From Calothrix sp. NIES-4105 (GTDB taxonomy: Bacteria > Cyanobacteriota > Cyanobacteriia > Cyanobacteriales > Nostocaceae), in assembly GCF_002368415.1 (NCBI RefSeq), contig NZ_AP018290.1, positions 10,035,717 through 10,099,716 of the forward strand: a stretch of 64,000 nucleotides of DNA. The letters are read 5' to 3'. Positions 36,374 to 39,387 of this stretch are shown here, piece by piece (positions within the stretch are counted from its first letter, which is position 1; every line of letters starts with the position of its first letter). The translations under genes and the position numbers were made by a program. The notes beneath the pieces were generated by a model. That model was not told where the DNA came from, did no database searches, and saw only the letters and a list, made by a program, of their open reading frames with translations.

Positions 36374-36485
36374 CAAATAAAGTCTTTCCCTTTTCTACTC
36401 TAAAAGGTAATATCACCATTGTGGGTAATATTACTTATAGAAACTATAGGCGATACTCACGATAGCATCGTTTGGCTTGAATCGT

Positions 36486-37121
36486 ATGAGTGGATTGGAG
36501 GAACAGTTACGTCAATTAGTTGAAAAAGCTTGTGGACATCCACCCGGAAGTCCACTTAGAGCTAGAGTGTTGACTCAAATTATTCGCTTAGTTGCCGTTA
36601 GACTGTGGAGAGAAAATAGTCCTTATTATCAAGATGCTTTACAACAAACTTGGTTATATTTCTGTCGTAATATTTGTGAGGGTTATGACCCTGACCGAGG
36701 AACAGTAGTAACTTGGTTGAATGTCTACTTGAAGCATAGACTACAAGATTTGTATATTAAATCACAAGAAGATAATATTAGAAAAGCATCTTTAGGCGTA
36801 CAGCAATTAGCTTCGGGTGATAAAAGTGATACATACGACCCTGTTGATAATATTGCTGCACCTCCTGACGCTCCCCCTATTTTAGAGAATGTTCGTGAAT
36901 GGGCAGAGGCTGATAATTTGGGAGACTTGCGTCGAACTCATATCCAAGGACGACCCGATGTAAATTGTCAGGTGTTAATCTTGAAACGTTTACCACCAGA
37001 AGTCAGTTGGAAGGAATTAGCTTCAGAATATGGATTAACAGTTTCGACTTTAAGCAGTTTTTATCAGCGCCAGTGTATACCTAGGCTGCGTCAATTTGCT
37101 CAAGATGAAGGCTATTTATAA
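36486..37121 (+). CDS. sigma-70-like (ECF-type) RNA polymerase factor
   Basis: 211 residues from the ATG at 36486 (MSGLEEQLRQLVEKA). A sigma2-like part (YQDALQQTWLYFCRNICEGYDPDRGTVVTWLNVYLKHRLQDLYI) is followed by a C-terminal helix-turn-helix (VSWKELASEYGLTVSTLSSFYQRQCIPRLRQFA), as in sigma4. Such short sigma-like proteins are common in filamentous cyanobacteria. No anti-sigma gene is evident. It ends 9 bases from the stop of the convergent double-RGSGR minigene. Confidence 0.8.
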   Translation: MSGLEEQLRQLVEKACGHPPGSPLRARVLTQIIRLVAVRLWRENSPYYQDALQQTWLYFCRNICEGYDPDRGTVVTWLNVYLKHRLQDLYIKSQEDNIRKASLGVQQLASGDKSDTYDPVDNIAAPPDAPPILENVREWAEADNLGDLRRTHIQGRPDVNCQVLILKRLPPEVSWKELASEYGLTVSTLSSFYQRQCIPRLRQFAQDEGYL

Positions 37122-37130
37122 GGTTTGTGT

Positions 37131-37235
37131 TCACTCGATAGTGAGTGTTATTCTACCGCTACCTCTATCATCGCTCAAAGGCATTACTGCTTCAACTCTA
37201 CCGCTACCTCTTTCACTGTCAAAAAATCTTAGCAT
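37131..37235 (-). CDS. PatS-like 34-residue peptide with two RGSGR pentapeptides
   Basis: The ATG at 37235 is preceded at ideal spacing by GAGGAAAG (37247-37240). Residues 1-13 (MLRFFDSERGSGR) align without gaps to the last 13 residues of Anabaena PatS (MLVNFCDERGSGR), with 9 of 13 identical. RGSGR is the pentapeptide that binds HetR and blocks heterocyst formation. The peptide continues VEAVMPLSDD, then a second RGSGR, then ITLTIE. PatS normally ends with RGSGR, so an internal and doubled motif is unusual; HetN also carries it internally. An inner ATG (residue 18) could give a 17-residue form with the second motif only. A long AT-rich upstream region (37236-37850) fits a regulated promoter. 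Function is inferred by motif. Confidence 0.85.
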   Translation of the reverse strand: MLRFFDSERGSGRVEAVMPLSDDRGSGRITLTIE

Positions 37236-38049
37236 TTTTCTTTCCTCAATTTAAATTATTAGTTTCACGCATTAAAATATTTATCTGCGAAAATTAAATG
37301 TTTACAGGCTTTCTAGACCAAAGAAACATATTCCTTCTATCTGAGTAAATGCCTCAAGTTCAATTACATTGTGACTTCTGTGCAACCCGGACTTTTTTTG
37401 ATTATTTTTGAAAAAAACATTATTCAATTGCCCCAATGCCTTCAAAATAGGCGTTAAAGCAAAAGCCAACCAACTCCGCCAATATATAAATTCATATTTA
37501 ATATAATCAAGTATCCATTTGACATTAATTATTTCTTTTATCAAAAAAAATAAATTAATCAAAAGTTGCTTCGACAAATTGATTATCATTGACCCTAATT
37601 AATGTTTAATAATGTTTGAACTTTATATCAGCTTTACATAGAGATTTAGCTTTAACCTGAGTATTTCTCCGTAAAGTCAAAAACTCAAGTACTTAGAATT
37701 ATCCTCTTAAGTATCTATTCAAGAATTTTTTAATCTTGATAAATATTTTTTTTTTAAGTATTTGTTACTTGAATAAGTAGAATTGTCAGTCAGTAAAAAC
37801 CACACAATTTCTAAATATATATATTGATAAGATTAAGTTAATGTTAAGAAAGTATAAAAAAACTCGCGATATTGCGAGTCCTTACTGAGTTAAAAATTTA
37901 TAATTATTGTAAATTCAGAGAATTTACGCAGTTGTCGGCGCCACCTAAACGCTTATTATCACTCATGTTTTGGAGCCGTAACAATACCTACATTATCAAC
38001 GAGAGTAATTTTAGTGTTGACGGATGAAACAGCACTAATCACTCATTAA
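37236..38049. other. 800-bp AT-rich region upstream of the PatS-like gene
   Basis: Apart from the terminator at 37855-37880 I see no supported gene; a 95-codon open frame at 37302-37589 has no ribosome site and poor composition. I did not find a GTA-N8-TAC box or the HetR palindrome (AGGGGTCTAACCCCT type). It should hold the promoter of the minigene. Confidence 0.5.
37855..37880 (-). terminator. rho-independent terminator downstream of pyrC
   Basis: On the minus strand a 6-bp stem (ACTCGC/GCGAGT) with a 6-base loop is followed by seven T. It lies 170 bases past the pyrC stop and insulates the PatS-like gene from pyrC readthrough. Confidence 0.7.
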
Positions 38050-39387
38050 TTACTCAAACTGTAAAGCTTGACCACGCACGTAGGTACAGAGCTTACCTTG
38101 ACGATAAACGATTTGACCGCCAACAATTGTAGTGTTTACCCATCCGGTTAAGTTCCAACCCTCAAAAGGACTCCATCCACACTTTGTAAATAGTTCTTCG
38201 CGCAGTACAGGACGGTAGGTTTTTAAGTCAACAAGAATTAAGTCGGCATCATAACCTACGGCAATAGCCCCTTTATTTGGTATCTTATAAGCTTTGGCAA
38301 CAGCAGTAGACATCCAGTTGACGACTTGATGAACGCTACATTTTCCTTGCATTGCGGCGGTTAGCATTAGTGCAAGCGATGTTTCAACTCCGGGCATTCC
38401 TGAAGGACTATTCGGATATTGTTGAGCTTTTTCTTCCAAAGTATGAGGTGCATGGTCAGTAGCAATAAAATCAATAACACCATCGTGTAGCGCTTGCCAT
38501 AGTACCTCACAGTCGTGGGGTGTACGTAGGGGAGGGTTCATTTGCGCTAGAGTTCCGATTTTTGCATAAGCGCTAGTATCCAGCAATAAATGCTGCGGTG
38601 TTACTTCTGCTGTAACCCAACTTGGTTTGTCAGAGCGTAACAACTCAGCTTCTTCTGCCGTAGACATATGTAGAATATGCAACCGCCGCTGATATTTTTT
38701 AGAAAGTTTTAAGGCTAGCTGTGTTGCATTAAGCGCAGCTTCGTTATCTTGAATTTGCGAATGAACTGCTGGGTCAGTAATACCTGCAAACTGTTGGCGC
38801 CGCTCGTTGATACGTGCCTGGTCTTCAGCGTGAACTGCGATTAAACGCTCACCTTTATCAAATATTTTATCGAGATTTGCTTCAGTATCTACCAATAACT
38901 GACCATGCATCGACCCCATGAAAATCTTAATTCCGCATGTTGGGTTGCTCGATAACAAATCTGGTAAATTTTCAGACGTTGCTCCAATAAAAAAGCCATA
39001 ATTAACTAAGCACTTTTGTGACGCGCGCTGCAACTTGTCATCTAAGGTTTGCTGAGTAGTAGTTAGAGGTCGCGTATTCGGCATCTCTAAAAACGAAGTA
39101 ACTCCACCTTTCGCACAAGCACAACTTGCAGTAAATAAGTTTTCCTTATGTTCGAGTCCCGGTTCGCGAAAGTGAACCTGCGGGTCGATAACTCCGGGCA
39201 ACAAAGTTAACCCACTTGCGTCAATTTCCGTAGTTGCGCTCGTGGCTTGAATTTCAGGTGCAACTTCGGTTATCATTCCACCGCGCGTCAGTACATCCCC
39301 AACAAAGAGTGTACCGTCAGGTAAAATGATGCTTGCACGGCGAATCAGTAAACTAATAGGTTCGGACATAGAGGTAAATGCACTCAC
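38050..39387 (-). CDS. pyrC: dihydroorotase
   Basis: The 445-residue amidohydrolase has VIDPQVHFREPGLEHKE (metal-binding HxH position), MPNTRPLTT, AVHAEDQ, LHILHMST and FIATDHAPHTLEEK, the active-site Asp segment. It closes carbamoyl aspartate to dihydroorotate in pyrimidine synthesis. The size fits class I dihydroorotases. The first Met (MSAFTS) or the one six codons later may be the start. A terminator lies downstream. Confidence 0.92.
   Translation of the reverse strand: MSAFTSMSEPISLLIRRASIILPDGTLFVGDVLTRGGMITEVAPEIQATSATTEIDASGLTLLPGVIDPQVHFREPGLEHKENLFTASCACAKGGVTSFLEMPNTRPLTTTQQTLDDKLQRASQKCLVNYGFFIGATSENLPDLLSSNPTCGIKIFMGSMHGQLLVDTEANLDKIFDKGERLIAVHAEDQARINERRQQFAGITDPAVHSQIQDNEAALNATQLALKLSKKYQRRLHILHMSTAEEAELLRSDKPSWVTAEVTPQHLLLDTSAYAKIGTLAQMNPPLRTPHDCEVLWQALHDGVIDFIATDHAPHTLEEKAQQYPNSPSGMPGVETSLALMLTAAMQGKCSVHQVVNWMSTAVAKAYKIPNKGAIAVGYDADLILVDLKTYRPVLREELFTKCGWSPFEGWNLTGWVNTTIVGGQIVYRQGKLCTYVRGQALQFE

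Follow-up and report, generated by a model that had tools for sequence, protein, structure and literature searches.

The PatS-like minigene and its surroundings

The window, a stretch of 64,000 nucleotides from the 12.04-Mb genome (8 contigs) of Calothrix sp. NIES-4105, carries on its minus strand a minigene (37131-37235) whose 34-amino acid product is MLRFFDSERGSGRVEAVMPLSDDRGSGRITLTIE. The peptide features two RGSGR pentapeptides, the first within ERGSGRV (37197-37211, minus strand) and the second within DDRGSGRI (37152-37166, minus strand), each with E or D just before it and V or I just after it. They recur with a period of 15 residues across the linker VEAVMPLSDD, and a six-residue tail (ITLTIE) follows the second copy, so that RGSGR does not occupy the extreme carboxyl terminus as in the classical form of PatS. 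The ORF, its coordinates and strand and both motifs are as given in a preliminary description of this DNA, which had proposed a PatS-like gene of tandem form. The genome has 43 matches to the pattern D/E-RG..GR, among which, by eye, D/E-RG[S/T]GR is found only in the two minigene copies.

The minigene ATG is preceded at 4 nt by the Shine-Dalgarno sequence GAGGAAAG (37240-37247, minus strand), invariant in the seven genomes of the genus, in all of which the ribosome site GAGGAAAGAAAAATG is unchanged. An inner ATG had been suggested to give a second product. This is not supported, since one of the seven congeners (L045) has ATA at that position and no Shine-Dalgarno sequence was seen by eye before the codon. 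Further upstream lie a DIF1-like -35 element, TCCGGG (37386-37391, minus strand), and, 17 nt after it, a -10-like element, TGTAAT (37363-37368, minus strand), which is invariant in 7/7 congeners. The DIF1-type element is found 155-156 nt upstream across the genus: four congeners have exact TCCGGA there, and the other three, the window included, have at this aligned position a version that is one base off. The three genomes of the sister genus g153 were searched over 1200 nt upstream and gave no exact TCCGGA, which counts against a promoter common to both genera.

The minigene is located downstream of, and in the same orientation as, a dihydroorotase gene (38050-39387, minus strand) that we take to be pyrC, a label of our own for a product assigned by Pfam to Amidohydro_1. 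On its other side a convergent gene (36477-37121, plus strand) codes a 214-amino acid protein that looks sigma factor-like by eye and has no Pfam match. The sigma-like gene adjoins patS in the tandem clade, while the 20 next best matches to it (L049-L068) lack both pyrC and RG[S/T]GR in flanks of up to 1.5 kb; this neighbour may thus be a mark of the tandem clade.

The pyrC anchor and single-copy PatS

The pyrC gene was found in 209 of the 217 genomes of the family and served as syntenic anchor of the patS locus. Its surroundings were examined in 80 other Nostocaceae, for 60 of them through 3' flanks (mostly of 3 kb, chosen to span genera) and for 20 through the pyrC locus with flanks of 1.5 kb. 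In 44 of the 80, pyrC is followed in the same orientation by a small ORF with a single motif; 43 of these are credible, the motif of L258 being part of a longer frame. In two genomes (L210, L244) pyrC is inverted and has the motif on its opposite side, 34 have no motif in the examined flank and none has more than one downstream of pyrC. The same arrangement was found through the motif in nine further genomes (L119-L122, L145, L169, L171, L172 and L174).

That this anchor finds real patS genes is indicated by three g22 genomes (L245, L256 and L259), where the peptide is MKA(V/A)MLVNFFDERGSGR and TCCGGA lies 655-663 nt before the motif. This layout fits the one reported for patS of PCC 7120, with DIF1 35 bp upstream of the transcription start at -580 (PMC7377430). 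The minigene of the window therefore sits at the patS locus, in the same place and orientation as the single-motif PatS of relatives. Its first 13 residues, when compared by eye to the canonical single-copy PatS of L245 (MLVNFFDERGSGR) at the same locus, have the 9 identities counted earlier. The statement that known PatS ends with RGSGR proved too strict: it describes the classical form, but single-copy forms with a tail occur at the same locus in L174, L191, L198, L218, L230 and L250. Carboxyl-terminal tails were also seen on PatS-like peptides of the pyrC locus in L169 and L172.

Distribution and copy number

The tandem gene is present in 10/10 genomes examined of two sister genera. Two RGSGR copies are found in 7/7 genomes of the genus of the window, the congeners being Calothrix sp. 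PCC 7103, PCC 7716, HK-06, FI2-JRJ7 and C42_A2020_038 and Dulcicalothrix desertica PCC 7102. The three g153 genomes have longer arrays at the same locus, with three copies in NIES-4101 and in CSU_2_0 (a MAG) and four in Calothrix elsteri CCALA 953. Among 44 candidate stretches, 9 loci were confirmed. A tree built from 30 pyrC sequences unites the ten tandem genomes on one branch (support 100/98). A profile of the tandem peptide run over the 217 family genomes gave these ten, at E 7e-17 or better, as the only strong matches. The next genome (G523, E 1.7e-6) owes its match to an RGTGR array inside a synthase, and inspection of weaker matches was confined to those that the search reported with a locus. 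When 388 genomes of the order were searched with one sequence as query, 75 had a match (E of 1 or lower), and the 30 reported with loci were inspected; this recovered tandem PatS in the three sampled genomes of the genus and, among the inspected loci, two other multi-copy ORFs (L013 and L024, see below).

Several features bear on the reading of the locus as a chance ORF, an untranslated repeat or a structured RNA. The ORF is very short, and a predicted-protein search with the peptide of the four-copy relative as the one tandem PatS query gave no match, as that reading would have it; the missing match is likely due to short length. Against it stand a frame and synteny kept in ten genomes, a Shine-Dalgarno sequence kept in seven, an RNA fold no better than that of shuffled sequences (z 0.58) and the lack of an Rfam match at the gathering score. 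Recurrence at the same locus in 10/10 genomes and the spelling of the 24 RGSGR copies of both genera by 11 different 15-mers also show that the tandem peptide is more than chance. The untranslated RNA or chance ORF was rejected on the fold, the Rfam result and the kept frame and synteny, and we consider it barely credible.

Conservation of motifs and spacers

The first 29 codons of the seven congeners have 7, 4 and 12 variable columns at the first, second and third codon positions, respectively. The overall pN/pS is 0.42 (21 pairs of the 7 congeners), a value drawn from 29 codons only. The DNA of motif 1 is identical within the genus and hence uninformative there. Motif 2 has pS 0.286 and pN 0, and the linker pS 0.161 and pN 0.131 (21 congener pairs each). 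The amino acid sequence of both RGSGR blocks is invariant in the seven congeners, which agrees with the conservation in close relatives foreseen for a genuine gene. Kept motifs and drifting spacers are what would be expected for a precursor with repeated units.

These values also bear on whether only one motif, probably the PatS-like first one, is functional and the second a passive duplicate. The first 13 residues of L043 align over the length of the PatS model (23.9 bits, positions 1-13), and the 80 other genomes have single-motif PatS where they have any, both in keeping with this reading. A passive duplicate is at odds with a second motif whose protein sequence is unchanged despite synonymous change, and with a sister genus that has three to four intact motifs; no degenerate RGSGR copy was seen in the ten tandem genomes. 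One working motif next to a passive one is accordingly an unlikely arrangement.

HetR, PatX and the curated models

Presence of hetR and patX in the same genome had been named as a check, and the genome has both. Its HetR is complete (299 amino acids) and in a gap-free alignment keeps R223, E253, E254, D256, D270 and D278, which are named as PatS6-contact residues of HetR in PMC4649674. The HetR_C domain scored above cut-off in the 13 of 13 genomes with RGSGR arrays that were tested. The own PatX (L115) is separate from the minigene, scores 51.1 bits with the NCBIfam PatX model NF047413 and has TCCGGA at -62 and GTAN8TAC at -89.

The cut-off of both NF047413 and the PatS model NF047415 is 30 bits. 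Canonical PatS controls reached 36.0 and 34.1 bits with NF047415, while the tandem peptides stay below the cut-off (window peptide 18.1, L043 23.9 and L048 19.2 bits). The four-copy form scores higher with the PatX model (22.4 bits) than with the PatS model (19.2 bits), both below cut-off. Judged by locus and sequence the minigene is a PatS ortholog, and the PatS-like identity and tandem form proposed earlier are both supported. It is a variant form and not classical PatS, scoring below the NF047415 cut-off and having a motif that is not carboxyl-terminal.

RGSGR in other proteins

The motif is also multiplied in larger proteins. In NifJ, the pyruvate:flavodoxin oxidoreductase (TIGR02176, 1818 bits for L272), the 72 copies of a variable loop that could be read include 26, from 10 of 36 genera, with one to four RGSGR. 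The sample is enriched, being composed of the 30 best matches to a motif-bearing NifJ, 40 chosen sequences including several from g22 and 5 found via the motif, 3 of these 75 loops being unreadable. All ten g22 loops read have it (L273, L276, L300, L301, L305, L325, L326 and L340-L342). Further loops with RGSGR are those of L277-L282, L284, L285, L304, L307, L333, L337, L346, L274, L275 and L123. When the 30 orderings of R, G, S, G and R were sought in the NifJ loops, only RGSGR recurred (45 times), two others occurring once each. RGSGR is absent from both NifJ loops read from the genus of the window (L327, L328).

HypF with ERGSGRI was found in L269 (TIGR00143) and, by likeness, in L270 and L271, the insert of the three reading DDERGSGRI or DEERGSGRI. 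A synthase of L158 has four tandem DERGTGR and scores 734 bits with PfaA (TIGR02813), below the cut-off of 1010 and on a fragment; we presume that it is perhaps HglE. The units of these PfaA-like synthases read DERGTGRVN(S/T)I, with four copies in L158 and one each in L173, L175 and L176.

Two ORFs feature a signal-like amino terminus followed by repeated motifs. One (L013:1417-2427, minus strand), from G096, a HetR-bearing genome of another family, has 17 tandem RGSGR spaced by 15-16 residues, the last spacing being 12; its one metagenome relative, P0002, is a weak match with three RGSGR covering 18% of the query. The other (L024:1480-1785, minus strand), from the HetR-bearing G208, codes 102 amino acids with three RGSGR. 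Their layout with a hydrophobic amino terminus is like that of PatX, an identity not assigned here because NF047413 gives no match for L013 and 12.5 bits for L024. Within 200 nt neither has an exact TCCGGA.

Three congeners (L070, L089 and L093) have small ORFs that carry K/R-ERGSGR close to their end, with no such D/E-RGSGR in the genome of the window. To the eye these ORFs look like part of the ~120-amino acid protein of L012, which belongs to a type of ~120-150 residues with [DE][DE]RGSGRR (L012, L019-L021 and L026) that is a false lead in RGSGR searches. This type looks RemA-like by eye; L012, the one tested, has no Pfam or NCBIfam match.

It is tempting to view RGSGR as a multiplied signal cargo, shared by tandem PatS, loops of the nitrogen-fixation enzymes NifJ, HypF and a PfaA/HglE-like synthase and the 17-copy secreted-type proteins, so that turnover of late proteins of the heterocyst would itself free a HetR inhibitor as was proposed for HetN. 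We put this forward tentatively, the odds being somewhat against it.

Proposed mode of action

PatS, which textbooks give as the diffusible inhibitor behind a one-dimensional bacterial pattern, signals to nearby cells that they should not turn into nitrogen-fixing ones. The minigene is probably the patS of this Calothrix, with its HetR-inhibitory pentapeptide duplicated in tandem to give a polyprotein-like precursor of two HetR-inhibitor units. Two units per molecule is the simplest reading of the sequence. Counting against this view are the mismatch in the DIF1-like element of the window, the lack of exact TCCGGA upstream in g153, the model scores under the cut-off, the 34 of 80 flanks that have no motif and an overall pN/pS of 0.42. 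A DIF1-type promoter would drive the minigene in differentiating cells, and cleavage around each E/D-RGSGR-V/I unit would yield two inhibitor peptides per molecule, ERGSGR and DRGSGR or RGSGR. Once released, the peptides would move into adjacent cells, where they would occupy the hood pocket of HetR and inhibit it; two copies might provide more signal per transcript.

Release of two signals by proteolysis, as first suggested, is plausible. Processing of the 17-residue PatS of Anabaena is believed to leave a short carboxyl-terminal peptide (PMC4133259, PMC5812504). In the HetR complex as reported, both free ends of PatS6 are near HetR side chains and Arg223 is near its carboxyl-terminal carboxylate (PMC4649674); an uncut internal motif may therefore bind HetR poorly, and an internal unit would need cutting on both sides. 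That a non-terminal RGSGR can work is indicated by a PatS-like protein of Arthrospira with such a motif, which complements a patS mutant (as cited in PMC2821919).

The uncut peptide might instead act as a bivalent ligand for both peptide sites of the HetR dimer, as PatS6 binds a hood-domain cleft in each subunit (PMC4649674) and the 15-residue period is common to all seven congeners. This is quite improbable: the ends of the bound peptide are free termini by HetR side chains (PMC4649674), NIES-4101 has a period of 14 and the copy number varies from two to four.

For the precursor with separately released units, the presence of two, three or four of them at one locus in sister species offers a natural dose series, which includes the culture-collection names Calothrix PCC 7103, PCC 7716 and NIES-4101 and Dulcicalothrix desertica PCC 7102. 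Tandem PatS shows tolerance for residues beyond the motif, suggests that cutting takes place at either side of it and would allow inhibitor stoichiometry to be varied in reaction-diffusion models. No description of RGSGR arrays was found in the portions consulted of a non-exhaustive PatS/RGSGR literature, where an earlier mention is possible.

Comparison with known systems

The minigene shares with PatS (NF047415; asl2301 of Anabaena PCC 7120) a short RGSGR peptide, a pyrC-linked locus, the ERGSGR context in copy 1 and, within the genus, a DIF1-type upstream element. It differs by its two to four copies of RGSGR, by its linker and carboxyl-terminal tail and by a score below the curated cut-off. 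Its 5' leader would be of ~120 nt, compared to a transcription start reported at -580 for PatS of PCC 7120 (PMC7377430). Like PatX (NF047413) it has an internal RGSGR followed by a tail; unlike PatX its amino terminus, MLRFFDSE, lacks by inspection a Sec-type hydrophobic stretch. PatX identity was rejected on this ground, on a score of 14.5 bits versus the cut-off of 30 and on the genome having its own PatX. HetN also has an internal RGSGR but is reported as a putative ketoacyl reductase (PMC4649674), unlike the 34-amino acid product of the minigene. Identity with HetN was rejected on size alone. Yeast alpha-factor, a eukaryotic and secretory multi-copy precursor in which repeated signal units alternate with spacers, has no homology to the minigene, which likewise repeats its signal units with spacers between them.
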